Below, piece after piece: positions 1,042-42,981 of a stretch of 43,256 nucleotides of DNA. The first letter of the stretch is position 1, and every line of letters begins with the position of its first letter. Source of the DNA: Bacilli bacterium (lineage in GTDB: Bacteria; Bacillota_I; Bacilli_A; RF39; UBA660); the NCBI GenBank assembly GCA_017511375.1, contig JAFWKJ010000005.1:1-43256 (forward strand), read 5' to 3'. The position numbers and the translations under genes are program-made. The notes beneath the pieces are model-generated. The model had not been told where the DNA came from and ran no database searches. It saw only the letters and a list, made by a program, of their open reading frames with translations.

Positions 1042-4000
1042 ATGGCAAAACTAATAAAAAACTATTTAAATAATTTTGGTGATATTACAGAATATTATAA
1101 TTTTTTAGTAAATAAAACAAAGAATCATGAGTATGTAGATATTACCAATGAATGGTTAATTGATAATTACTATATTTTAGCAGAACACAAGAATACCATC
1201 ATGAATTCTATAAAGGATATTAAAAAGGATATTAAAGAAATTAATAGTAATTATACTATTCTAAAAAATATTGTAAGTAAGAAAAACTATAATATCAGTT
1301 TTAAATACTTAGTAGAGGAATTAAAAGCTTATCAAAAAGAAACAAAGAAGGCTTTTACATACAAAGAACTTAAGAATGTAATGCCAACACTAGTATTTAT
1401 CTATACAGAACGTTTAAATAACTTATGTAGAGAAGAATATGCCAAATTAGTAGATAAAGAAGATGTAGATAACATTATTAAAAGACAGGAAAATCATACA
1501 CTTCAGTCATTTATTCAAGAAAATTTTGATGTTAAAAATAATGGACACTATATTTTTGAAATTAATAATCAATTATATCGATTAAAAAATAGAAATGAGA
1601 TTTTTAAACAATTAAATGAGTATTTAAAAGAAAATCAAATTAGTTTAAAAGATGTTATTAACGAAGAATTCCAAAATAAAATTAATAGTAACGTACTTAT
1701 CTCTAATATTTTTAATGATTTTAATGAGTTTTTAGAATTTACAACAGAAGAATTATTTGAAAAGGTATCCAAAACAGAAAAACTATTAATGACAGATCCA
1801 AACTATAAGAATATGACTATCGAATCTAAGTATTCTTATCGTAAACGTTTATTAAAACTTGCAAAAAAAGCTCATATGGATGAATATAGTTATTTGGAAA
1901 AGATCTTTTCACCAGACGAACATATTGGTTTTAAACTATTTAAGACAAGAAGTAATACGCCAAAAGTAGTAATGTATTTAATGTATATTACCTTCATTAC
2001 TTGTATCATATGTTACTTGCTATCAGGAATATTTATTCGACCAAGAGCTATTGGTTTTATCATTTTACTAATTCCAATTGGACAATTAGTCATTCAGATT
2101 ACCAATCATATTTTAACGTCTATTGTACCACCTCATGTTATGCCAAAATTAGATTATTCTAAAGGGATTCCAGAAGAATCTAAAACGATGGTAGTTATTC
2201 CAACCATTGTAGGAAATACTGAAAAAATTAAAACCATGTTTGATATTTTAGAGTCTTTCTATCTAGTAAATAAAACAGATAATTTATATTTCACATTATT
2301 AGGAGATGTAAAGGCTGCGAATGAAAAAGAAACAGATTATGATCAAGAAATATCAGAATTTGGAAAAGAGTATGCCGAAAAATTAAATCAAAAGTATAAA
2401 AAAGATATTTTCTATTTTATTTATCGTAAGAGAATATGGAATAAGAAAGAAAACAGTTATTTAGGATATGAAAGAAAAAGAGGAGCTCTTGTTCAATTCA
2501 ATAAGATATTGTTAGGAGAAACCATTGATGAGGAGAAATACTTCAATGTCAATATGCTGCATGACAATAACTTAAAAATAAAATACGTGATTACACTAGA
2601 TACGGATACAAAATTAGTATTAAATTCAGCACTAAACTTAGTAGGGGCAATGGCACATCCTCTTAATCAGCCTGTATTAAATAACAAACAAACGAAAGTT
2701 ATTAAAGGTTATGGTTTAATGCAACCAAGAGTTGGATTAGACATAGAAGCAACTAATAGAAGTTTGTATAGTCAGATTTTTGCAGGAATTGGTGGTTTTG
2801 ATACTTATTCAGCCATTATTCCAAATGTATATCAAGACTCCTTTGGAGAAGGAAGCTTTGTAGGAAAAGGTATTTACAACCTAGAAGTATTTAATAAGAT
2901 TCTAGGAGATACTTTCCCTGACAACTTGATTCTTTCTCATGACTTATTAGAGGGTAACTATTTAAGATGTGGTTATGTATCTGATATTGAATTAATTGAT
3001 GATTTCCCATCTAAATTCTTAATTGATATTACAAGACATCATAGATGGGCTAGAGGAGATACGCAAATCATTGCTTGGTTAGGAAAGAAAGTTCCAGGTA
3101 AAAATGGAAAAAGAGAAAACCCAATTAATTTATTAGGAAAATATAAAATATTAGATAATATCATTCGTATGTTCTTAAATCCGATGCTATTACTAGTCTT
3201 ATTATTAGCATTTACTTTTAAAGGATTATATTCTTTCTTATGGGTAGGACTTGTCATTTTAGAATTAGCCATTTCTATCATCTTCTTCTTAAGAAGTAAA
3301 ATGACATTAAAAGAAAGACATAAGAAGAGTGTTTATTATAAGAATTTATATTTTGGAGGAAAATCAATTCTTCTAAGAGCTTATATTGGTTTTGCAACAA
3401 TTCCTTTTTATACAAAACTATATATGGATGCTTTCTTTAGAACCTTATATCGTTTATTCTACAGTCATAAGAATCTATTAAATTGGATTACAGCAGAAGA
3501 AGTAGAAAGAACTGTAAATGGAAGTTTATTAAACTACATTAGAAATTTCTTATTTAATTATTTCGTTGCGGGCATCTTTATTTTAATCGGAGTATTTACA
3601 AAGAATCCTCTAGCTTACGTTTTAGCAGCCATCTTCATGAGTGCTCCATTTGTTTTATATGTTGTAAGTAAAGATATCGATCATCATCCAATTGCATTAA
3701 AGGCAAAAGAAATAGATGATATTAAAGAACTTGCTGAAAGAACTTGGAATTATTTTGCAGATGGTTTAACAGAAGAAAATCATTATTTAATTCCAGATAA
3801 TTATCAAGAAAATAGAGACCAAAGATTAGATCATAGAACCTCTCCAACAGCCATAGGTTATTCCTTAACAGCTGTTGTAAGTGCCTATGAACTAGAATTT
3901 ATCAATCAAGCAGAAGCAGTGGATTTATTAGGTAACATTCTTACGTCTGTGGATAAATTAGATAAATGGCATGGTCATTTATATAATTGGTATGAAATAA

Positions 4001-7000
4001 AAGATATGAAGGTAATTAATCCACAATTTGTTTCTACTGTTGACTCTGGAAACTTAGTAGCAAGTTATATTGTCGCAAGAGAATTCCTATCAAAAATTGG
4101 AAATGAAGAGTATGTAAAATTATGTGATAAGTTAATCAAAAATACAAACTTTAAAAAATTATATACCAAGAAAGATGTGTTCAGTATTGGTTATGATGAA
4201 GATGAAGGAAAACTATCAGGATATAACTATAATAAGTTTGCCAGTGAATCAAGATTAACGAGTTATTTAGCTATTTGTTTGGGGGATGCTCCTTCAAAAC
4301 ATTGGTTCTGCCTTGATAAATCTTTGACAACTCACAAAGGGCATAAAGGATTAATTTCTTGGAGTGGAACTGCTTTTGAATACTACATGCCATATTTATT
4401 TATGAAGAATTATCCAAATACTTTATTGGATGAATCTTACCAATTCGCAACGATGTGTCAAAAAGACTATATCAATAAAGTGTCTCATAAATTACCATGG
4501 GGTATTTCAGAGTCTGCTTATAATGAATTAGATAATTCCCTAAATTATAAGTATAAAGCATTCTCAACACCATATTTAAAAGCCAAAGAAGAAAAAGAAA
4601 GTCGTATCGTACTTTCTCCATATTCTTCTCTTATGGTTTTAGATTTATATCCAAATGATGTTTACAATAACATTAATCGTTTTAAAGATTTAGAAATGTA
4701 TGGGGAATATGGATTATATGAATCCTATGATTATGATAATAAAGGAGTCGTAAAATCATACTTTGCCCACCATCAAGGAATGAGTTTATTAGGAATCACA
4801 AATTACTTAAAACAAGGAGTGATTCGTGATTATTTCCATTCGAATATCAATATAAAAACTTTTGAATTATTATTAAAAGAAAAAGTTCAAATTAAAGCTT
4901 CTATTGATTTAAAGATGGCTGGTTATAAAAAATATAACTATACAAAAGAAACCATTGAAAATGATATACGTTACTTTAACTACATTTCATACTTACCAGA
5001 AATGTCTGTTTTATCAAACAAAAAATACTCTTTGATTATGAATGATCGTGGAGATAGTTTTTCAAGATATCGTACAACGCAATTAAATAGATATCGTAAA
5101 GTAACAGAACAAGATTATGGTATTTTCCTATTTATTAAAGATGAAAAAACTAATAAAATTTGGAGTAATACGTATGCTCCAATGAATGAAAAACCAGATA
5201 AATATGAAATTGTTTTTGCAGCAGATAAAATCAAATATATGAGACGTGATGGAGATATCTCTACCAAAACAGAAATTGTAGTATGTAAAGCCCATCATGC
5301 TGAAATCAGAAAAATATCCTTTAAGAATGAATCAAATGAAGATCGAATTATTGAATTGACTACTTATACAGAACCAATTCTTTCTGAGAACATGGATGAT
5401 GTAACTCATAAGGTCTTTAACAATATGTTTATTCATACAAAGTATGATAAAGAAACAAATTGTTTGATTGCTAAGAGAAAAAATAGAGGAGATTCTAATG
5501 TAAGTAACTATATGTTTACGAAGATGATTATCAATGATCCTTTAGATGACTATAGCTATGAAACAGAAAGAGAAGATTTTATTGGAAGAAATAAAACATT
5601 ATCTACCTCTAAAGCATTAAGCGAACCATTAACAAATTACGCAGGAGATAACTTGGATCCTATTCTTTCTTTAAGAAATAGAGTGTTAATTCCAGCAAAT
5701 GAAAAAGTAACGATTTACTTATTAGCAGGATTTGGACGCAGTACGGAACAATTAAGAGATACCGTAGAATATTATGATTCAAAGAATGTTCTGGATAAAG
5801 AATTTAAAATTTCTACTTTAATGAATGTCATTGATACAAAGAACTTAAATATTACTGGAGATAATATGAGAACCTTTAATATTATGTTGAATTATTTGTA
5901 TCAAACAACCCGTTTATCTGTAAATGAAGAGAGAATGGATTTATTAAGAAACAATGCCTTAGGACAATCAGGATTATGGAAATTTGGTGTAAGTGGAGAT
6001 AGACCAATTATCACAATAGAAATTAAAAATATTAGTGATATGAGTTTTGTCTATGAAATCTTAAAAGCTTTTGAGTATTTCAAAAACAAATCTATCTTTG
6101 TAGATATTATCATTATTAATGATGAAACAGGACAATCTCAAAAACTAATTAAAAAACAAATAGAAGATGAACTATATCGAATCTATACTTTAAATAGTTT
6201 CTATCATACACCAGGTTCTGTAACAGTGATAAACAGTAGTAATATTACACCAGAAGATAGAAGCCTTCTAAATATGGTTCCAAGAATTCACTTTAATATT
6301 GATGATCATATTAGTTTAAAAGAAGCGGTATTAAAAATGCAAAAGGAAAATAAGATTAGTGATTATAAACAATATGATTTAGAAGAAAATGAACCATATA
6401 AGAATACAGAAAAATTAATGTATGACAATGGTTATGGTGGATTCAAAGAAAATGGAAAAGAATATGTAATCTATAATAAGGATACTCCAACACCTTGGGT
6501 CAATGTGATTGCTAATCCAACCTTTGGAACAGTCATTACAAACAATGGTTGTGGCTATACATATGCTTATAATTCAGGAGAATATAAAATCACTTCTTGG
6601 ACCAATGATATATTATTGAATGATAAATCAGAAGGATTTAAATTTAATGACAAAAACTTTGATCCGGAAAAATGTACCCATGGATTTGGTTATACGATTC
6701 TAGAAAGTGAAACCAAAGAATTAGGACATACAATTACAGAATTTATTGCACAAAAAGATAATGTAAAAATCTATTGGATGAAATTAAAGAACAAGACAGG
6801 AAAAAATCATAAAGTAAACGTAGATTTTTGGATTAATCCAACCTTTGGTAATTTCGAGGAAAAAACATCTCGTCATATTCTAACAGAATTTATGGGAGAC
6901 GATAACTACGTAAAAATGCGTAATGTTTATAGTATCAATTATGGAGATGTAAATGTCTTCATGACTGCTTCTGAAAAGATTGATCAAGCGATTACAGAAA

Positions 7001-8664
7001 GAATGTTAGTAAAAGATATTGCCTTTGATGTAGAACTTGCAAAAGACGAAGAAAAAGATATTATTTTCCTACTTGGTTGTAGTATGAGTGATTCTCAAAA
7101 CAAAGAACTAATTGCAAAATATACCAATGTAAAAAATGTTCAAAAAGAATTAAAACAAGTAAAAGAATACTGGGAACAAACACTAGGAGTAATTCAAGTA
7201 AAAACACCAGATACAAGTTTTGATTACATGATGAATGGTTGGTATTTATATCAAACCTTATCAGCTCGTATTATGGCAAAAGCGGGATTCTATCAAGTAA
7301 GTGGTGCTTTTGGATATCGTGATCAATTACAAGATGCCATGAATATCGCCTTAGTGAATCCAGCAGACACCAAAGAACAAATTCTTAAAAATGCGGCACA
7401 TCAATTTGAACAAGGAGATGTTCTACATTGGTGGCATGAAAAGAATCACTTTGGTTTAAGAAGTCGATATAAAGATGATTATTTATGGTTAGTTTACGCA
7501 ACGGCCTATTATACAGATATTACAAATGATTATAGTATCTTAGATGTAGAAGTTCCTTATATCATAGGAGAGGGATTAAGTGACTATGAAAGTGACAAGG
7601 GAATTGTATTTAGTTATACAGAAAAAACAGAATCCCTATTACAACACTGTATCAAATCACTTGAACTTGCTATGAACTCATTAGGAAAACATAAGATTCC
7701 TTTAATGGGTGGAGGAGATTGGAACGATGGAATGAACCGTGTAGGAATCAAAGGAAAAGGAGAAAGTGTATGGCTTGGATTCTTCCTTTACACGATCATT
7801 AATCAGTTCACAAAAATGGTTAAGAAAACAAAACATAAAGTGGATTTGAATCCTTATACGGAATTTAATGCTAAGTTAAAAGAAAACTTAAATAAGAAAA
7901 CATGGGATGGGGATTATTATTTAAGAGCTTTCTTCGATAATGGAGATAAACTTGGTAGTCATGAAAACGCAGAATGTAAGATTGATTTAATATCACAAAG
8001 TTTCTCAATCATTAGTGGGGTTGCTCCAAAAGAAAGAGCCGAAAAAGTGATAACCTCTGTGGAAGAAAACTTAGTAGATGATCAAAATAAGATTGTAAAA
8101 CTATTAACGCCACCTTTTGAAAAGACATTAAATAACCCAGGTTATATTATGAACTACTCAAAAGGAATTCGTGAAAATGGTGGACAATATACCCATGCTG
8201 TTTCTTGGTATTTAATGGCTTTAATCAAAGCAGGATATCATGATAGAGCTTATCGTTATTTCCAGATGATTAATCCAGTTAATCGTACACTTAATCAAGA
8301 CGATGTCACGAAGTATCGTGTAGAACCATATGTAATTGCTGCCGATATCTATTCTTCAGAATCCTTCCCAGGAAGAGGAGGATGGACTTGGTATACAGGT
8401 TCTGCTGGATGGTTCTATCGTGTGGGAGCCCAAGAGATATTAGGTATCCATAAGATGGGAGATAAATTAAAATTAGATCCAAGAATGCCAGTTGCTTGGG
8501 ACGGCTTTAAAATGAATTATCGATACATTGATACAGATTATAGTATTGAAGTAAAGAAAGATAAAAAAGAAGAGTTAAAAGTAGATGGTAAAAAACTAAC
8601 ATCAGATAACATATCTTTGAAAAACGATGGTAAGAAGCATACAGTTGTATTAACCGTTAAATAA
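1042..8664 (+). CDS. Cyclic beta-1,2-glucan synthase-like membrane protein (NdvB type; GT84 plus GH94)
   Basis: A 2540-residue membrane enzyme. In order: an N-terminal cytosolic helical region (1-300); two membrane segments (about 309-356); a glycosyltransferase domain (about 380-690) with Asp520-Thr-Asp522 as the DxD site and Arg668-Trp669 in an H-H-R-W motif; further membrane segments (about 711-750 and 830-875); a glucoamylase-like alpha/alpha-barrel domain (about 890-1290) of the type that cyclises beta-1,2-glucan; beta-sandwich regions; and a C-terminal GH94 phosphorylase domain (about 1820-2480) with Gly-Asp-Trp-Asn-Asp at 2225-2229, Asp2229 being the likely acid. In known enzymes UDP-glucose is polymerised, trimmed by the phosphorylase domain and ring-closed. 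The start has an AGGAG site. It forms a single-gene transcript closed by a terminator. Whether this one makes cyclic or linear glucan cannot be told from sequence. Confidence 0.88.
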   Translation: MAKLIKNYLNNFGDITEYYNFLVNKTKNHEYVDITNEWLIDNYYILAEHKNTIMNSIKDIKKDIKEINSNYTILKNIVSKKNYNISFKYLVEELKAYQKETKKAFTYKELKNVMPTLVFIYTERLNNLCREEYAKLVDKEDVDNIIKRQENHTLQSFIQENFDVKNNGHYIFEINNQLYRLKNRNEIFKQLNEYLKENQISLKDVINEEFQNKINSNVLISNIFNDFNEFLEFTTEELFEKVSKTEKLLMTDPNYKNMTIESKYSYRKRLLKLAKKAHMDEYSYLEKIFSPDEHIGFKLFKTRSNTPKVVMYLMYITFITCIICYLLSGIFIRPRAIGFIILLIPIGQLVIQITNHILTSIVPPHVMPKLDYSKGIPEESKTMVVIPTIVGNTEKIKTMFDILESFYLVNKTDNLYFTLLGDVKAANEKETDYDQEISEFGKEYAEKLNQKYKKDIFYFIYRKRIWNKKENSYLGYERKRGALVQFNKILLGETIDEEKYFNVNMLHDNNLKIKYVITLDTDTKLVLNSALNLVGAMAHPLNQPVLNNKQTKVIKGYGLMQPRVGLDIEATNRSLYSQIFAGIGGFDTYSAIIPNVYQDSFGEGSFVGKGIYNLEVFNKILGDTFPDNLILSHDLLEGNYLRCGYVSDIELIDDFPSKFLIDITRHHRWARGDTQIIAWLGKKVPGKNGKRENPINLLGKYKILDNIIRMFLNPMLLLVLLLAFTFKGLYSFLWVGLVILELAISIIFFLRSKMTLKERHKKSVYYKNLYFGGKSILLRAYIGFATIPFYTKLYMDAFFRTLYRLFYSHKNLLNWITAEEVERTVNGSLLNYIRNFLFNYFVAGIFILIGVFTKNPLAYVLAAIFMSAPFVLYVVSKDIDHHPIALKAKEIDDIKELAERTWNYFADGLTEENHYLIPDNYQENRDQRLDHRTSPTAIGYSLTAVVSAYELEFINQAEAVDLLGNILTSVDKLDKWHGHLYNWYEIKDMKVINPQFVSTVDSGNLVASYIVAREFLSKIGNEEYVKLCDKLIKNTNFKKLYTKKDVFSIGYDEDEGKLSGYNYNKFASESRLTSYLAICLGDAPSKHWFCLDKSLTTHKGHKGLISWSGTAFEYYMPYLFMKNYPNTLLDESYQFATMCQKDYINKVSHKLPWGISESAYNELDNSLNYKYKAFSTPYLKAKEEKESRIVLSPYSSLMVLDLYPNDVYNNINRFKDLEMYGEYGLYESYDYDNKGVVKSYFAHHQGMSLLGITNYLKQGVIRDYFHSNINIKTFELLLKEKVQIKASIDLKMAGYKKYNYTKETIENDIRYFNYISYLPEMSVLSNKKYSLIMNDRGDSFSRYRTTQLNRYRKVTEQDYGIFLFIKDEKTNKIWSNTYAPMNEKPDKYEIVFAADKIKYMRRDGDISTKTEIVVCKAHHAEIRKISFKNESNEDRIIELTTYTEPILSENMDDVTHKVFNNMFIHTKYDKETNCLIAKRKNRGDSNVSNYMFTKMIINDPLDDYSYETEREDFIGRNKTLSTSKALSEPLTNYAGDNLDPILSLRNRVLIPANEKVTIYLLAGFGRSTEQLRDTVEYYDSKNVLDKEFKISTLMNVIDTKNLNITGDNMRTFNIMLNYLYQTTRLSVNEERMDLLRNNALGQSGLWKFGVSGDRPIITIEIKNISDMSFVYEILKAFEYFKNKSIFVDIIIINDETGQSQKLIKKQIEDELYRIYTLNSFYHTPGSVTVINSSNITPEDRSLLNMVPRIHFNIDDHISLKEAVLKMQKENKISDYKQYDLEENEPYKNTEKLMYDNGYGGFKENGKEYVIYNKDTPTPWVNVIANPTFGTVITNNGCGYTYAYNSGEYKITSWTNDILLNDKSEGFKFNDKNFDPEKCTHGFGYTILESETKELGHTITEFIAQKDNVKIYWMKLKNKTGKNHKVNVDFWINPTFGNFEEKTSRHILTEFMGDDNYVKMRNVYSINYGDVNVFMTASEKIDQAITERMLVKDIAFDVELAKDEEKDIIFLLGCSMSDSQNKELIAKYTNVKNVQKELKQVKEYWEQTLGVIQVKTPDTSFDYMMNGWYLYQTLSARIMAKAGFYQVSGAFGYRDQLQDAMNIALVNPADTKEQILKNAAHQFEQGDVLHWWHEKNHFGLRSRYKDDYLWLVYATAYYTDITNDYSILDVEVPYIIGEGLSDYESDKGIVFSYTEKTESLLQHCIKSLELAMNSLGKHKIPLMGGGDWNDGMNRVGIKGKGESVWLGFFLYTIINQFTKMVKKTKHKVDLNPYTEFNAKLKENLNKKTWDGDYYLRAFFDNGDKLGSHENAECKIDLISQSFSIISGVAPKERAEKVITSVEENLVDDQNKIVKLLTPPFEKTLNNPGYIMNYSKGIRENGGQYTHAVSWYLMALIKAGYHDRAYRYFQMINPVNRTLNQDDVTKYRVEPYVIAADIYSSESFPGRGGWTWYTGSAGWFYRVGAQEILGIHKMGDKLKLDPRMPVAWDGFKMNYRYIDTDYSIEVKKDKKEELKVDGKKLTSDNISLKNDGKKHTVVLTVK

Positions 8665-26790: not shown

Positions 26791-26820
26791 AAATACACTT
26801 CTAAAAGAAGTGTGTTTTTT
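26791..26820 (+). terminator. Terminator of the T-box/ileS operon
   Basis: Stem around ACACTTC (26795-26801) and GAAGTGT (26807-26813), followed by T tract. Confidence 0.8.
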
Positions 26821-26864
26821 CCATTTTAAAAACAAGTAAAATGCATGTATACCATGCCTTTTTC

Positions 26865-26895
26865 TTGTGCAAGATTGCATAAACTATAGTAAAAT
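26865..26895 (+). promoter_or_regulatory. Probable promoter of the repeat-protein operon
   Basis: TTGTGC (26865-26870), 19 bp, TAAAAT (26890-26895), 18 nt before the ATG at 26914. Moderate match only. Confidence 0.45.
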
Positions 26896-26913: not shown

Positions 26914-27192
26914 ATGGAATTAGATATGAAAAAAATACAGGAACTATTTGGTAAAAGTTTCATACAAGAAATGGGAGACAACAAAGAAACTTTTATAGAA
27001 AATATTGAATATGTTGTATCTTTGGGTTACAAGGATGTTTTTGAATTGGTAGAACACTATCCTGAAACCTTTTTAATAGATTCCATTACGTTTAAAGAAA
27101 AAGTAGATCACTTATTAGAATCTTTAGGGGTAGAATCCTTTGAAAAAATAGAAGAAAATATAGAAATATGGGGGTCAATTAATGAAAACTGA
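26914..27192 (+). CDS. Small mTERF-like helical protein, partner of the repeat protein
   Basis: 92 residues from the ATG at 26914, with AGGGTG six bases upstream; a GTG at 26905 is less likely. All helical. The middle holds a unit of about 30 residues with the pattern of mTERF repeats: an amphipathic helix, His-Tyr-Pro-Glu-Thr-Phe-Leu, then a second helix ending Leu-Leu-Glu-Ser-Leu-Gly. mTERF-type repeats bind nucleic acid in animal and plant organelles and are not a usual bacterial family. The stop overlaps the next start by 11 bases, so translation is coupled to the 757-residue repeat protein. The resemblance is by eye and needs a profile search. Confidence 0.5.
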   Translation: MELDMKKIQELFGKSFIQEMGDNKETFIENIEYVVSLGYKDVFELVEHYPETFLIDSITFKEKVDHLLESLGVESFEKIEENIEIWGSINEN

Positions 27193-29455
27193 ATGGAAAA
27201 TACTGGAAGTATTATTTGAATATGATCTTCATTTTAATGAGGAAAAAAGGCGTTATCTTGAAAAATATGGTAATGGAGAAAACATTCGAAGAATACTTGA
27301 TTATTTAATAGATGAATTAAATATTAGTAAAAGAAGTATAGAAAAATGTCCTAGTATCTTACTAGGAAGAGTAGAGGAGATAAAGAATAATTATCAATTC
27401 CTACAAGAAAAACAAATAGAAATCTATAATGTAGAAACCTGTCTACATATTTTAGTCGTGAACGAAAGAGACTTAAGAGAAACCTATCAGTATGTAGAAA
27501 ACAATTATGGAGTGGCCGCTATAAACAAAAACACAAGTATCTTGAGAGTAAAAAAAGAAAGAATCGAGCAAATTCATAATCGATTTGGGATGCAATTAAC
27601 TCCTGAAACACAACTAGGAGCAGCTATTTCAAGAAGAACGATAGAAGAGATAGAAGAAATCATCCAGATATGTATCAATAACAATATTCCAATCACTTCA
27701 ACGGCTTTTAAACAAACCCCACAAGAAGTAAAGGAAGATATTAGAATTTGGAAAACAACGAATCAAAAGATGACAGGAAGTATTTTCCACAAGAATTCAA
27801 AAGATCTAGAAGATTTATTAGAATATTGTAGAGAAGAAGGAATCCCTATATCATCCAGTATGCTAGGTTGTCCCTTAGAAAACTTAAAACAAATTGTAGA
27901 TGTGGCAAAAGAAAGACAATTAGATATAAAAGGACTTTTGTTTAGAAAGGATTCTATTGAATTAGAAGAAATCATCGCCTTATGTGAAGAAAACCATCTA
28001 GAGGTAGGAATAAGTGTCTTAAATTCTAATCCTTCAGAAATCAAAAGAATGATTCAAGTGTGTGATCAATATGACGTTGAAATATGCGATTCCATGTTTT
28101 CTAAGAGTGCAACAGAAGTGGAAAAAATTATTCAACTATTCCAAAGAAATCATGTAGATAATATTACAGGGTCTCTTTTCAAAAGAAGTAGATTAGAGAT
28201 AGAAGAAGCCATGAAGATGTGTGACAAATATGGTATTAAGAAAGAGGGAACAGTTTTCTATCGTACCGCAGAAGAAATAGAAGAGATTGTGAAAATATGT
28301 CAACGATATCATGTGAAGATAGAAATGACCATGTTTCATAGAACAAAAGAAGAAGTGGAGAAAGTATTGGAATATTGTCAGCTGAGTGGACTACCAGTAA
28401 GTGGAGCCCTATTCATAAGAGATCCTCAAGATATAGGGAAGATTGTAACACTCTTAAAAAGAAGTGGCATTCCATTTACCCCAACAGCCATGCAAAGATC
28501 GATTACTGAGGTGCAAGATATCCTTACTATTTGCAAAAAATATAAAGTGGAATTTACTCCTAACATGTTTTCTCAAACGCCAAAAGAAGTGGAAAAGAGT
28601 ATTATAGTGACACAAAAAAACCAGGTACCACTAACGGCTTCTATGTTTCAAAAAGATAGTAAGAATTTAGAAGATATTATTACCTTATGTAAAGAAAAAC
28701 AAATCCCTATTTTGAATTCAATGTTTTTTAGAACAAAAGAAGAGATAGAAGGATTATTACTAATTTGTGAAGAATATCATTTAAAACCACAAGACTCAAT
28801 GTTTAGAAGAAGACCCATAGAATTTAAAAAGATATTAGATTTAGCAGAGAGTTATCATATTCCTCTTACCGCAAGCATTTTTAGAAAAGATCCTCAAAAA
28901 GTAGAAGATATTATTAGAAAAAGTTTGGAAAGAGGAATTGTTCCAACAGGATCCGTATTTAAAAGAACACCTGAAGAAATAGATGAAATATGTGACATTT
29001 CACTAGATTTAACAGGAAAACTTCCAACCAACAACACCTTCTTAAAAAAGCCAGAGGAAGTAAGAAAAATCTTGCAGTTATGTATCAGCAATCATATTCC
29101 TATCACAGGAACCATCTTCAGTAAAAATGCGATAGAACTAGCAGATAGTATCGCGTGTATTAAAGAGGAGTATGGGGAAGAGTATTTAATGCCAAGCACA
29201 ATTATTTTAGATAGAAATCATATCAAAAGTGTATTATCCTATTTAACAGGAAAAGGATGCATAGATGTTTTACATAAAAGTGCAAGTATTTTAAGGTTAT
29301 CCTTAGAAGAAATTATAGAAAGAGAATTCTATCTTCATAATATCAATGAAAAAATGATTACAGATGCTCATACATTTCACCCTGTATTTGGATGGTCAAG
29401 GAAACTATTTGAAAAGCGTAAAAAAGAACTAGAACAAAAAAGGGTGGTTATGTAA
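27182..29455 (+). CDS. Large alpha-solenoid protein of 26-residue tandem repeats, function unknown
   Basis: 757 residues, no signal peptide or membrane segment. Residues about 48-147 hold three mTERF-like units of 29-32 residues (Pro-Ser-Ile-Leu, His-Ile-Leu, Thr-Ser-Ile-Leu). From 148 to 643 run 19 units, 17 of exactly 26 residues and two of 27, and three more divergent ones (28, 28, 26) reach 725, before a basic C-terminal tail. Each unit has Ser/Thr at 1, Phe at 3, Arg/Lys at 5, Glu at 9, Ile/Val/Leu at 10, hydrophobic 13-14 and 16, Cys at 17 (11 of 19) and Ile/Val/Leu at 22. This fits a short helix plus a longer helix stacking into a superhelix. Likely a binding scaffold for nucleic acid or protein. 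I know of no named bacterial family with this repeat. Confidence 0.75.
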   Translation: MKTEWKILEVLFEYDLHFNEEKRRYLEKYGNGENIRRILDYLIDELNISKRSIEKCPSILLGRVEEIKNNYQFLQEKQIEIYNVETCLHILVVNERDLRETYQYVENNYGVAAINKNTSILRVKKERIEQIHNRFGMQLTPETQLGAAISRRTIEEIEEIIQICINNNIPITSTAFKQTPQEVKEDIRIWKTTNQKMTGSIFHKNSKDLEDLLEYCREEGIPISSSMLGCPLENLKQIVDVAKERQLDIKGLLFRKDSIELEEIIALCEENHLEVGISVLNSNPSEIKRMIQVCDQYDVEICDSMFSKSATEVEKIIQLFQRNHVDNITGSLFKRSRLEIEEAMKMCDKYGIKKEGTVFYRTAEEIEEIVKICQRYHVKIEMTMFHRTKEEVEKVLEYCQLSGLPVSGALFIRDPQDIGKIVTLLKRSGIPFTPTAMQRSITEVQDILTICKKYKVEFTPNMFSQTPKEVEKSIIVTQKNQVPLTASMFQKDSKNLEDIITLCKEKQIPILNSMFFRTKEEIEGLLLICEEYHLKPQDSMFRRRPIEFKKILDLAESYHIPLTASIFRKDPQKVEDIIRKSLERGIVPTGSVFKRTPEEIDEICDISLDLTGKLPTNNTFLKKPEEVRKILQLCISNHIPITGTIFSKNAIELADSIACIKEEYGEEYLMPSTIILDRNHIKSVLSYLTGKGCIDVLHKSASILRLSLEEIIEREFYLHNINEKMITDAHTFHPVFGWSRKLFEKRKKELEQKRVVM
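27623..29356 (+). repeat. Array of 22 degenerate 78-bp coding repeats (26-residue units)
   Basis: Unit starts by residue: 148, 174, 200, 226, 252, 278, 304, 331, 357, 383, 409, 435, 461, 487, 513, 539, 565, 591, 618, 644, 672, 700. DNA identity between units is low while the protein pattern is kept, so the array is old and under selection and is not a recent expansion. Confidence 0.85.
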
Positions 29456-29456
29456 T

Positions 29457-29870
29457 ATGGAAGATACAGATTTAAAAGAATTATCAAGGAACCTAATTAT
29501 TTGGCTGGTAGTAGTTGTAGTTTTCGGTTCTCTTATGACAATCATTTTTATCAATAAATTTGGAAGCAAAGATATTCCTATTAACAAAATAATTGATAAA
29601 AAAGAATCATTAGTAGTATTAATCATTAATAATGAAACAAAAAATACAGAACAAATTCAAAAGAAACTAGAAGAGTATCCACTAGAGTATGAAGTTGTAA
29701 ATAAAGATAAAGAAAGATATTATAATGAATTTCTAAAAAAAATATCTATTACAGAAGAAGATATTGTAGAACCAACCGTTCTTATCATTCAAAAGAAGAA
29801 AGTAAAATCAATTTTGGTAGATATAGAAAATATAGAAGATTTAAATACATTTTTAGATTATAATAAGTAG
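29457..29870 (+). CDS. Membrane-anchored thioredoxin-fold-like protein without CXXC
   Basis: 137 residues. One N-terminal membrane segment (about 13-33) leads to a domain of about 90 residues with the strand order of a thioredoxin fold: Leu-Val-Val-Leu-Ile-Ile, a helix, Tyr-Glu-Val-Val, a long helix, then Glu-Pro-Thr-Val-Leu-Ile-Ile where the Pro would be the cis-proline, and a last helix. The usual Cys-x-x-Cys is absent and there are no cysteines at all, so redox activity is excluded. It begins one base after the stop of the repeat protein and is tightly co-transcribed with it. Fold assignment is tentative. Confidence 0.5.
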   Translation: MEDTDLKELSRNLIIWLVVVVVFGSLMTIIFINKFGSKDIPINKIIDKKESLVVLIINNETKNTEQIQKKLEEYPLEYEVVNKDKERYYNEFLKKISITEEDIVEPTVLIIQKKKVKSILVDIENIEDLNTFLDYNK

Positions 29871-33712: not shown

Positions 33713-33742
33713 TTGACAGTTTTTTTAAAATTGTAATATCAT
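33713..33742 (+). promoter_or_regulatory. Promoter of the surface protein gene
   Basis: TTGACA (33713-33718) with TATCAT (33737-33742) at 18 bp, or TAATAT (33734-33739) at 15 bp. Confidence 0.6.
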
Positions 33743-33764
33743 GAAAATAGAAGGAGGTAAGGTT

Positions 33765-35243
33765 ATGGAAAAGAAAGTAAGATATTTGATGTTGCTACTT
33801 TGTTTATTTTTATTTCCTATAAAAGCATTTGCTTTAGAAGGAGCAGTAGAAGAAATAGATGACAATGTAGTAATAGAAGAAAATAATACAGATGACCTTT
33901 ATGCAGAGGATTTAATAGAAATAGAAAATCCAATGAAAGTATTATTAGGAGAAGAATCTAATAATAATGATGTAGGAGATGAATTAGACCCTACAAAAAA
34001 AACTACGGAGGAAGAGGAAGAACCATCAGTAGGAGAAGAACCAAAAGAAGAGGAAAATAATATAGAAAGTGATGGAGAAGAACCAACAGGAGAAAATCCA
34101 ACAACAGGAGAAGAACCATCAGGAGAAGAGCCAACCATATTAGAGTTAGAAGAATTTTCACTAACGGGAGTAAAAACGGATTTGGTTGTAGGATCAGATT
34201 TCTCTTTTGGAGGAAGTTCAGGAGAACCTGAAAAGTATACAGTAGTACGTGAAGAATGGGCAATCTATTCGGGAGCAGGACCAACTATCGCTTCTAGTGA
34301 TGCTGCCTATAATGTAGAACTACAGGCAAGTGGAAAACTCTTAGATGCGATTGAAGAAAACAAATATTACAACTATAGAGCGGTACTTAAGTTTGCGGAT
34401 GGCACCACACCAGCTTCCACTATGACGGCTATTATCAATGGGACATCATATGATGCTAGTATCTTCGATTATGATGAAGAAACAAATATAGCTATTATAC
34501 ATGTCAATATTTATAAACAAGCCATCAACCCAAATGCTCAGTATATTGATGCATTAGATTTACTAGATGTTGTTTTGGATGCCATTGCAGGGAAAACACC
34601 TACATTTACCGCAACGACAAAAACAGAACACATCACTCTAGTAGGCGAGAGATGGGAGTTTTATAAAATGGATGTATCTCCAGAAGGGGATAATGAACAC
34701 TATATCTATGCGAATGCATCAAACGAAGAATTGATTGATCCAAACTACGATAATAAATTTGATACTTTTAATACGGATAATCGATATACATACCTAGTCG
34801 TAGTAGATACAGAAGAAGGATATCGACTAAACTTCGAGAATGAAGATACATCATACTATAAAGTTACAATCAATGGAGAACAAAAAGACTGTGAAGTCTC
34901 TAGTGAACTACTTGATAATGGAGGAATGCGTTACTACATTTATGTTCTATTTAACGTAGAGCCAACGGTAGAGGAAATAGAAGAAGCAGTAGTAGAAGAA
35001 ACTGGGGAAGCTACTTCAACCTATGTTTATGAAGAAGAAGAGATAGAAGAAGTTGCTACTTTATTAGTTTCAAAAACAGAAAGCGATGAAAAAGATCCTA
35101 AGTTAGAAGTAAGAAAAGATAAACAAGAAAAAGAGGCAGAGGAAAAGGATACATCAAGTAATGCTGGATTAATTGTATTCTTAATTATTCTAATTGTGAT
35201 TGCCATTGCGATACCAATAACCATATATAGAAAGGAACAATAA
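33765..35243 (+). CDS. Secreted surface protein with acidic Gly-Glu-Glu-Pro repeats and a C-terminal membrane anchor
   Basis: 492 residues from the ATG at 33765, with AAGGAGG seven bases upstream. The ATG at 33741 overlaps the promoter and is rejected. A signal peptide (about 1-22, ending Ala-Phe-Ala) leads to an acidic low-complexity region (about 60-130) with repeats of Gly-Glu-(Glu/Asn)-Pro, then two similar beta-rich domains of about 130 residues, a Glu/Lys-rich linker, and one membrane segment (about 468-485) with a short basic tail. There is no LPXTG, so it is held by the membrane segment. Adhesin-like or wall-spanning; family not recognised. The next gene encodes a PrsW-type protease. 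Confidence 0.7.
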   Translation: MEKKVRYLMLLLCLFLFPIKAFALEGAVEEIDDNVVIEENNTDDLYAEDLIEIENPMKVLLGEESNNNDVGDELDPTKKTTEEEEEPSVGEEPKEEENNIESDGEEPTGENPTTGEEPSGEEPTILELEEFSLTGVKTDLVVGSDFSFGGSSGEPEKYTVVREEWAIYSGAGPTIASSDAAYNVELQASGKLLDAIEENKYYNYRAVLKFADGTTPASTMTAIINGTSYDASIFDYDEETNIAIIHVNIYKQAINPNAQYIDALDLLDVVLDAIAGKTPTFTATTKTEHITLVGERWEFYKMDVSPEGDNEHYIYANASNEELIDPNYDNKFDTFNTDNRYTYLVVVDTEEGYRLNFENEDTSYYKVTINGEQKDCEVSSELLDNGGMRYYIYVLFNVEPTVEEIEEAVVEETGEATSTYVYEEEEIEEVATLLVSKTESDEKDPKLEVRKDKQEKEAEEKDTSSNAGLIVFLIILIVIAIAIPITIYRKEQ

Positions 35244-40446: not shown

Positions 40447-42981
40447 ATGAGTTTAAAAGATGTTTTTTCTGGCCAACAAAGTTTTTGGAGTTGGCTAACA
40501 GGAAGAGACCCCAAAGAAGCAGACATTTATGCTAATTATGATAAAGTGGAAGAGGTTGTTTCTAAACTAAGAAACATCTCAAAGAATGAAGTGGCAACCG
40601 CGCAAGAGAATATCTACGCGGCTTTTGAGCAATTAAATAAGGTAAAAGGGTTAGCAGAATATGTTGGAACGATTGAGGTTAACAATTACGATTCTTTTTT
40701 TGGTTCAATAGGAGATGTAGTAGATGATATTACTGAGAAGATAGAATCAAAAGCAGAAAGTATTAAGGCTTATGAAGAACAACCATTCCTAACAAAATTT
40801 GGAAGTACACTAACAATGGGTATTTGTAAAATAGGAGAAGGATTACTATCTGTCTTTGAAGATTTAGGAGACGGAATTGTTTCCGTTGTAGGTTGGGTTG
40901 CTCCAAAGGATTCTGGTCTTGAAAATGCGTGTGCAGAATTTATCAAGAAAGAATGGTCACACGATGTTTTTAATGGATATTATAATAGTAATTTTGCAAA
41001 AGCAAGTTTCTTTACAGAAGATAGTGCAGCTGCCAATTGTTTTAAAGTAGTCGGTAAGGTAACAGGATTTGTGGCAGCTGGTTATGTAACAGCAGGAGCC
41101 CTAGGATTAGGAGCTACAGCCACTTATGGAACAGGTCTGCTGAGTGCCAGTGGAACAACTATTGGAGGAACCGTGGTCGCAGGAGTAAGTGGTCTGGGAT
41201 CTGGAACCGAAGCTGGCTTAAACGAAGGAATGGAATATAATGATGCCTTCAAACTCGGCGTAAAACAAGGAGCAAAAAGTGCAGCAGTTGCTTTTGTTGC
41301 TGGTAAAGCTACAGAAGGTCTTGTCAAATATAAAAATGCGAAAGCAGGAGGCGGAGACGTTGCTGGAGGAGCCGAAGGCGCTTCAGAAGGCTTGGCAGAA
41401 AGAGCCGCTGAAGGGGCAGCCGATGGTGTTGCAGAAGGAACTGCAGAAAGTGCAGAAACCGAAGCAGTAAAACAATCTCTTGGAAAACGTATTGGAGAGA
41501 AACTTGGTACGACCAAAGATAAATTGGTAGATGGTATCAAAGGCGGCGCAAGTAAGATTAAGGGAGTGCCTAGCAAAGCATTAGATGCCCTAAAAGCATA
41601 TCCTGGAAAAGCCGCTACAGCGTTAGCTGAAAATGGAGCTGCCATAACAGAAGGCGGAATAAAAGCTGCTTTAACTGCTGGAGGAGTAGGAGCGGCTGTA
41701 GGAGCTGCTTTGTATGATCAAAAATTTCAATCTGATCATGAAATTGGTGATTTTCGTGTGACGATAGATACAACGCCACAAGCGTTATATGCACCGCCAC
41801 CAACAACGGCGCCAGTATCAGACGCTGTAACAGATCCGCCAACAGCACCAGAAGATATCGTTCCAACGAGTCCACCAACAAAACCGGAGGACATCGTTCC
41901 AACGAGCCCACCAACGAAACCAGAAGATATTATTCCGACGGATCCACCAACGGACCCACCACCAACAAATGCTCCGACGGATCCACCAACAGATCCGCCA
42001 ACAGATGCTCCGACGGATCCACCAACAGATCCGCCAACAGATGCTCCGACGAATCCACCAACAGAGGCTCCAACAGAGCCACCAACGGACCCAGAGGATA
42101 TTATTCCAACAGATCCACCAACAGACCCAGAAGATATTATTCCGACGGATCCACCAACAGATCCAGACAGGGAAATTGATTCTATCATAGATACAACCCC
42201 AGTTACGGACCCAGAAGATATTATTCCAACGGATCCAGAAGAAATAATTGAGGATACAACCCCAGATACAATACCAGAGGAAATTATCCCAACGGACCCA
42301 CCAACGGATCCAGAAGATATTATTCCAACGGTACCAGATACAGAACCTGTTGTAACACCAACCGATCCAACGGGCTCTACGTCAAATGGTGGTGGAGAGG
42401 TATCTTATGTAAGTAGTGCAATACCAGTCAGTGGTGGAGGTACAGGATACACATCTTTAATTGATGAAGGTTCATCTAATCATTCAGGAGCTGAAACAGA
42501 TGGAGATACAATCATTTCAGACCCATTTGAATTGGAGAAGGCAAATGATTTAGATGCTTTAGAGGAAATAGAAGAAAAATTTGATGAAGATTCTACATCA
42601 ATTCAGGATGTGATTGAAAATGATAATACGATTAAACAGATTCCAAAAATCGATAATCCAATCACGCCAACGAAAAAAACATCTAATTCCGTAATACCAA
42701 TTGCCGCAGGTTTAAGTGTAGCCGCAGCCGCAGGTATTGGAGCAAAAGCTTATATGGATTATAAAAAGAATAATGCAACAGGTGAAGAAGAGGATGAATA
42801 TGAGGATGAATATGAAGACGATTTTTCAACCGAAGAATGGCAAGGAGATGAAGGAACTGTTAAAGTAGATTACAATCAATCATCACCAGAAGAAGAATTA
42901 GAAGAGGATAATTACTATCAAGAAGAAGAGGATAGTGGTTATAAAGCAAGAAATGCAAGTGAGTTTTCAGAACTTCAATAA
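40447..42981 (+). CDS. Large type VII-associated protein with Pro/Thr/Asp stalk and membrane anchor
   Basis: 844 residues without an N-terminal signal peptide. Parts in order: a helical region (about 1-120); a region with hydrophobic Gly/Ala stretches (about 200-275 and 395-425) separated by an Ala/Glu/Gly-rich part; a Pro/Thr/Asp-rich stalk (about 444-642) built on Asp-Pro-Pro-Thr and Pro-Glu-Asp-Ile-Ile-Pro-Thr units; a linker; one membrane segment (about 747-770); and a very acidic tail. The lack of a Sec signal together with small ESX-like proteins upstream suggests export by type VII, as with LXG-type proteins, but I see no LXG motif or toxin domain. The stalk could cross the cell wall. 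GGGGAC site; first residues Met-Ser-Leu-Lys. Confidence 0.65.
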   Translation: MSLKDVFSGQQSFWSWLTGRDPKEADIYANYDKVEEVVSKLRNISKNEVATAQENIYAAFEQLNKVKGLAEYVGTIEVNNYDSFFGSIGDVVDDITEKIESKAESIKAYEEQPFLTKFGSTLTMGICKIGEGLLSVFEDLGDGIVSVVGWVAPKDSGLENACAEFIKKEWSHDVFNGYYNSNFAKASFFTEDSAAANCFKVVGKVTGFVAAGYVTAGALGLGATATYGTGLLSASGTTIGGTVVAGVSGLGSGTEAGLNEGMEYNDAFKLGVKQGAKSAAVAFVAGKATEGLVKYKNAKAGGGDVAGGAEGASEGLAERAAEGAADGVAEGTAESAETEAVKQSLGKRIGEKLGTTKDKLVDGIKGGASKIKGVPSKALDALKAYPGKAATALAENGAAITEGGIKAALTAGGVGAAVGAALYDQKFQSDHEIGDFRVTIDTTPQALYAPPPTTAPVSDAVTDPPTAPEDIVPTSPPTKPEDIVPTSPPTKPEDIIPTDPPTDPPPTNAPTDPPTDPPTDAPTDPPTDPPTDAPTNPPTEAPTEPPTDPEDIIPTDPPTDPEDIIPTDPPTDPDREIDSIIDTTPVTDPEDIIPTDPEEIIEDTTPDTIPEEIIPTDPPTDPEDIIPTVPDTEPVVTPTDPTGSTSNGGGEVSYVSSAIPVSGGGTGYTSLIDEGSSNHSGAETDGDTIISDPFELEKANDLDALEEIEEKFDEDSTSIQDVIENDNTIKQIPKIDNPITPTKKTSNSVIPIAAGLSVAAAAGIGAKAYMDYKKNNATGEEEDEYEDEYEDDFSTEEWQGDEGTVKVDYNQSSPEEELEEDNYYQEEEDSGYKARNASEFSELQ
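41977..42048 (+). repeat. Perfect tandem duplication of 36 bp in the stalk-coding region
   Basis: Two identical 36-bp copies, 41977-42012 and 42013-42048, each coding for 12 residues of the Pro/Thr/Asp stalk. Flanking units are diverged, so this is a recent in-frame duplication. Confidence 0.9.

Follow-up and report, generated by a model that had tools for sequence, protein, structure and literature searches.

A two-gene cassette of gut Bacilli pairing a small mTERF-like protein with an mTERF-capped array of 26-residue units that may bind DNA

The window, a stretch of 43,256 nucleotides from a Bacilli genome, carries a long solenoid gene whose start is overlapped by a small gene of mTERF fold (Table 1). 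The first-pass annotation had described the repeats of the larger product, but both its N-cap and the overlapping conserved gene were absent from that account. Two bases past the solenoid stop codon lies a small membrane ORF (29457-29870), the counterpart of which in a relative (L022) is glutaredoxin-like (Pfam glutaredoxin, E 8e-5); because it is retained in most genomes without the cassette, this ORF is taken to be a core gene and not a cassette part. Elsewhere, the window contains a 2540-aa glycosyl hydrolase 94/glucoamylase protein with domains of the cyclic beta-glucan synthase type (1042-8664), and two ORFs (33741-35243, 500 aa, and 40447-42981, 844 aa) that have no Pfam match at E 0.001.

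Table 1. Features of the cassette locus, and the separate mTERF locus of the same genome
Feature	Position	Strand	Description
ACACTTC/GAAGTGT hairpin and T run	26795..26821	+	after ileS; probable terminator; the scan lists the stem on the minus strand
Conserved TATAGTAAAAT element	26885..26895	+	upstream of the small gene; probable -10 region
Small partner gene	26914..27192	+	92 aa; mTERF fold; 11-base overlap with the start of the solenoid gene
Solenoid gene	27182..29455	+	ATG start, open frame, 757 aa; N-cap, 20 units of 26 aa, C-cap
N-cap	27182..27622	+	residues 1-147; mTERF-like three-helix units of ~33 aa, e.g., CPSILLGRVEEIKNNYQFL
Unit array	27623..29188	+	residues 148-669; 20 units (unit HMM, AlphaFold2)
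C-cap	29189..29452	+	residues ~670-757; mTERF-like SASILRLSLEEIIEREFYL, then a basic tail
390-aa mTERF locus, window genome	L100:2640-5119 (G000:C12)		other loci: L101, L102, L103

Autocorrelation over residues 148-660 of the solenoid protein peaked at a lag of 26 (0.84, z 18.7), with lag 52 at z 15.8, and no shuffled control rose above -0.47 at any lag. The unit HMM placed the first of its 20 units at residue 148 and gave 19 spacings, 17 of 26 residues and two of 27, in agreement with the 19 units of the same lengths that had been described from that residue. The constant residues were likewise as first reported: Phe is found at position 3 in 16/20 units, Lys or Arg at position 5 in 16/20, and Cys at position 17 in 11. 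Three looser units had been proposed beyond residue 643; one of them is indeed a 26-residue unit (644-669), but the remainder is the mTERF-type C-cap. Units of the window array are on average 45% identical in DNA and 23% in protein, so the combination of low DNA identity with a strict protein period also held, and because of these values the array is judged to be old and not a recent DNA repeat.

The AlphaFold2 model, built from a 12-sequence alignment, is a regular solenoid of two-helix units, as had been expected, with a mean pLDDT of 90.3; within a unit, the short helix is predicted to cover positions 2-6 and the long helix positions 9-21. The global shape of the superhelix is uncertain because the pTM is 0.51. 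When the full model was searched with Foldseek, the leading solved structures were the TALE-array protein TOD6 (E 4e-6), BurrH (2e-5), dHax3 TALEs (1e-4 to 1e-3), and MTERF1 (0.037), and designed repeats ranked below these DNA-binding repeat proteins, at E 0.07 or worse. The corresponding TM-scores are not strong (0.1-0.2), but low values are expected because superhelices are flexible. VIA-align superimposed model residues 1-243 on DNA-bound MTERF1 with Z 13.6 over 240 aa (4.2 A), which assigns an mTERF superhelical fold to the N-terminal 240 residues; it also gave Z 12.1 for a TALE over 351 array residues (7.0 A) and Z 9.0 for BurrH over 608 aa, values to be read with the caveat that, for repeat proteins, a Z below ~13 can reflect a common arrangement. 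Neither the family profile nor the homogeneous array of locus L028 had a TALE chain among its PDB matches; membership was therefore not assigned, and we take the resemblance of the predicted structure to TALEs to be a likeness of form. The matches of the solenoid to PPS_PS, FAD_binding_4, SduA, and other Pfam, NCBIfam, PHROGs, and PADLOC entries were short, mutually contradictory pieces and were rejected, since helical repeats typically give such fragments.

Confident assignment to a known repeat family was one outcome that the first-pass annotation had set against its own proposal. The caps do match mTERF, but the array has no credible family in Pfam, NCBIfam, or PHROGs; the window solenoid has no Pfam mTERF (PF02536) match, and the best N-cap score to that model, 20.1 bits in L034, lies below the curated cut-off of 23.1 bits. 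Searched against the PDB, the family profile matched MTERF3 through N-cap residues 25-89 (E 0.0058). In hhalign comparisons, a canonical 390-aa bacterial mTERF, which is described below, scored 38.8 against the N-cap (shuffled maximum 20.8), 45.1 against the C-cap (17.5), and 41.3 against the small partner (15.5). Compared with the array directly, its profile scored 13.1, below the shuffled maximum; because this profile does not reach the array itself, the link from mTERF to the array is transitive. The N-cap profile aligned to three consecutive 26-aa units with a score of 36.8; reversing the profile gave 11.4, and none of 30 column shuffles exceeded 15.5. That alignment pairs CPSILLGRVEEIKNNYQFLQEK with TGSIFHKNSKDLEDLLEYCREE and places a 6-residue gap at the middle helix, and the most plausible view of the 26-aa unit is therefore that of an mTERF unit lacking this helix. 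A clear profile link to the unit was seen for the N-cap only, and the other direct links tried were rejected, the C-cap and the 390-aa mTERF scoring at the shuffled level and the small partner barely above it. Three-helix repeats of ~30-35 aa with a conserved proline are present in the N-cap and the partner and absent from the two-helix array. To regard the unit simply as different from mTERF, as was done at first, is nevertheless misleading, because the caps, the partner gene and, via the N-cap, the unit trace to mTERF.

Three Clostridia proteins, L062:3-1415:- (471 aa), L064:19-1911:- (631 aa), and L063 (158 aa), have near-identical units of ~33 residues that match the family N-cap; these are possibly proteins of the pTERF type discussed below. 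In L053 (382 aa), the same N-cap is followed by a different repeat, KLEDIQKIIQSEEFKKHPELFTSQVLAQA, a layout suggesting that the caps are combined with other arrays.

The best Pfam match of the small partner is likewise mTERF, at E 1.2e-4 in L028 (21.6 bits) and 0.0021 in L018, both under the cut-off. The top 8 matches in the PDB profile search were all MTERF1 (E 0.0017-0.006). Its AlphaFold2 model (pLDDT 91.8) retrieved only mTERFs with Foldseek, and 88/92 residues superimposed on MTERF1 at 2.5 A with Z 7.1-7.4, the next unrelated chain being at Z 2.4.

Proteins of the mTERF family are known mainly from mitochondria and chloroplasts. A Pfam mTERF search found a canonical protein of ~390 aa in most of the genomes sampled from the window's genus; that of the window genome scores 165 bits against PF02536 (E 2e-48), above the 23.1-bit cut-off, and matches human MTERF3 as a single sequence at E 7e-12. 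All four genomes examined at this locus (4/4) have the 390-aa mTERF followed by an mTERF protein of ~129 aa and then by RNase HIII, and across a phylum sample of 392 genomes an mTERF match was found only in the window's genome and in one family member. The 390-aa protein (L100-L103) resembles the cassette in its profile similarity to the caps and partner and in belonging to a large/small mTERF pair, but it differs from the solenoid in having canonical repeats, in lying at another locus, and in occurring in most sampled genomes of the genus.

Solenoid relatives were found in 14/39 genomes of the window's genus. With the family alignment as query, a scan of ~85,000 species genomes gave 18 loci, whereas a single solenoid sequence gave none. 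All 18 are in MAGs labelled Bacilli, Erysipelotrichaceae, Bacillales, or Clostridia, and several of the isolate names suggest ruminant or rabbit gut; one of the loci, L033, is recorded as Bacillales bacterium UBA3789. No homologs were found in phage, plasmid, or viral contigs, and there is thus no sign of mobility. As the first-pass annotation had anticipated, homologs are restricted to a few lineages and vary in unit number, from ~1 to 20. There are 20 units in the window group, 19 in L027 and L034, 17 in L030 and L031, and 12 in L010 and L011, down to ~3 in L013 and apparently one between the caps in L054. Three members (L010, L011, and L091) lack the N-cap. A 1989-aa frame at L032:1574-7540, in which a SpaA-like surface protein is fused to the solenoid from inside its N-cap, is possibly a misassembly.

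The gene order in Bacilli members is usually ileS, small gene, solenoid, thioredoxin-like membrane ORF, and SDR, with L026 having other upstream genes. In those cassette-free genomes whose region between ileS and the SDR gene was retrieved, the small gene is absent too, and in most of these the thioredoxin-like ORF or the SDR gene directly follows ileS; the intervals of some cassette-free genomes contain unrelated ORFs (L072:2931-3968, reverse strand, and L079:4216-5097). The solenoid and the small gene are thus either kept or missing together, at a single fixed place on the chromosome. In pairwise comparisons, the divergence of the solenoid follows that of the SDR (Mantel r 0.76) and that of the small gene (Mantel r 0.58). 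Most simply, the two genes would be an inherited cassette that has been lost many times. The hairpin after ileS suggests that the cassette is probably transcribed as a unit of its own. Because the TATAGTAAAAT block, or a close variant, is also present in most cassette-free genomes, it is most likely a promoter, and the idea that it is the cassette protein's own target site was rejected. At the Clostridia loci L034 and L027, the solenoid gene has no small partner and follows a gene that, from its sequence, we take to be ruvB. L027:10001-14061 (G063:C16) contains two tandem solenoid genes, the second of which runs off the contig and probably ends on G063:C4.

Positions 4, 8, and 12 of the unit had been proposed as reading residues, of which only position 4 remains a candidate. 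Its identity between units of the same protein is 9%, the lowest of the 26 positions, yet it is 48% identical between orthologs, whereas positions 8 and 12 reach only 22% and 31%. Positions 15 and 18-21 are comparably variable between units and 21-27% identical between orthologs; positions 5, 25, and 26 resemble position 4 in their pattern, to a lesser degree. Because position 4 varies most between units while each unit tends to retain its own residue there in orthologs, it is, from these alignments, the likely reading residue. At positions 4/5, units 17 and 18 have RK and then KR or RR in 12/12 orthologs (31-53% overall identity to the window protein), and the pairs of units 14-18 (QK, FR, KR or RR, RK, and KR in most) persist at 36% overall identity. 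In the near-identical array of L028, with a DNA identity of 83%, position 4 is again the most variable (L, Q, K, R, F, and Y); it differs in 82% of unit pairs there and in 71% of those in the near-identical array of L034. In the less uniform array of L027, positions 18, 21, and 23-25 are as variable or more so. Of 373 distinct units, 74% carry a basic residue at position 5, and this near-constant residue supports the modular surface that had been suggested from the outset.

Prokaryotic proteins with mTERF-like tandem repeats have been published, and the kind is therefore already known: pTERF proteins were described from gut Bacillota MAGs (Hu et al. 2024, Nucleic Acids Res, PMC11417379). pTERF1, from rumen Clostridia, binds ACTNNNAGTC with a Kd of 1.87 nM; sequence-selective DNA binding was demonstrated for both pTERF1 and pTERF2, and the motif changed with the repeat arrangement (PMC11417379). 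Compared by their description, pTERF proteins are the closest published relatives of the solenoid and may overlap with its family, but their units are three-helix and number 3-11, with most members having fewer than six (PMC11417379), whereas the solenoid has up to 20 two-helix units of 26 aa and a small mTERF partner. In the literature searched, nothing was found that describes a 26-residue unit, arrays with as many as 20 such units, a small gene paired with them, or an mTERF next to RNase HIII. With the mTERF family proper (MTERF1, MTERF3, and MTERF4; PF02536) the cassette shares the fold of caps and partner, the profile links, and the CPSIL proline-hydrophobic motif of the N-cap; the array differs in its shorter units, which would lack the middle helix, and the whole solenoid in the missing Pfam match. 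TALE and BurrH (Bat) proteins are similar in their long arrays of units with a short and a long helix, in a hypervariable residue beside otherwise constant positions, and in the nearly identical units of some members. Their repeats are, however, 33-35 residues long, the PDB searches detected no sequence similarity, and TALE bases are specified from a loop at residues 12/13, whereas the hypervariable residue of the solenoid is at position 4 of the short helix and its position 12 is weakly conserved between orthologs.

Sequence-specific binding of double-stranded DNA is the most likely activity, given the mTERF relation, the resemblance to TALEs in form, and the reported binding of DNA by pTERF proteins from similar bacteria. 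With moderate confidence, based on the models and these analogies, we propose a two-gene gut Bacilli cassette in which an mTERF-capped array of shortened mTERF units would bind double-stranded DNA sequence-specifically. The array would wrap the duplex, as MTERF1 and TALE arrays do, with the short helices facing the groove, the Lys or Arg at position 5 touching the backbone, and position 4 giving sequence choice; 20 units might then read roughly 20 positions. The net charge of the window protein (-9) speaks against this reading, as do the low TM-scores, the pTM of 0.51, the lack of TALE sequence matches in the PDB, and the lack of a direct match between the 390-aa mTERF profile and the array. 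By analogy with mTERF, a solenoid bound at a conserved chromosomal site could perhaps act as a transcription roadblock or regulator, and the small protein could be its translationally coupled partner.

The main rival is an array that, like PPR proteins and certain mTERFs of organelles, reads single-stranded or structured RNA and would have its role in RNA processing, in ribosome assembly, or in translation; we consider this a serious, though less likely, alternative. The structural matches include the Tetrahymena mitoribosome mTERF mS93 and human MTERF4, which works with NSUN4 in mitoribosome assembly, and in the same genomes the 390-aa mTERF adjoins RNase HIII, an enzyme whose substrate is RNA-DNA hybrids. 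A maize mTERF protein is also reported to function in group II intron splicing (PMC4005652). The top matches of the array, however, are TALE-type binders of double-stranded DNA, and both pTERF1 and pTERF2 bind DNA (PMC11417379).

A scaffold that offers its modular surface to a protein partner, such as RNA polymerase or a replication protein, and that reads no nucleic acid seems improbable. Alpha-solenoids are frequent binders of proteins, and the overall charge of several family members is near neutral or negative; such a role sits poorly with the predominantly basic position 5 (74% of the distinct units), with the mTERF relation, and with a hypervariability at position 4 that is preserved unit by unit. 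Very unlikely is a dispensable gene in decay, in which case loss of the cassette would be ongoing and its present function weak at most. Roughly two thirds of genomes in the genus lack it at the same site, L013 retains only ~3 units, and L011 and L091 have no N-cap, one of them also having a shortened partner gene, but the 750-aa frame is mostly intact in distant species, the caps and positions 4 and 5 are conserved, and divergence follows the neighbours, as the correlation with the SDR gene indicates.

More tentatively, the solenoid could be a compact 26-residue DNA or RNA reader that arose from mTERF through loss of the middle helix followed by expansion and homogenisation of the array, with an independent, TALE-like code of one unit per position at residue 4 (and 5) and a dedicated small mTERF partner. 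A canonical mTERF beside RNase HIII in gut bacteria in any case provides a bacterial setting in which the function and origin of mTERF can be tested. If the proposed reader is real, nature would have a second way of recognising nucleic acids in a modular and possibly programmable manner, with a unit about a quarter shorter than the TALE repeat, and arrays of TALE-like form would be connected to the mTERF fold.
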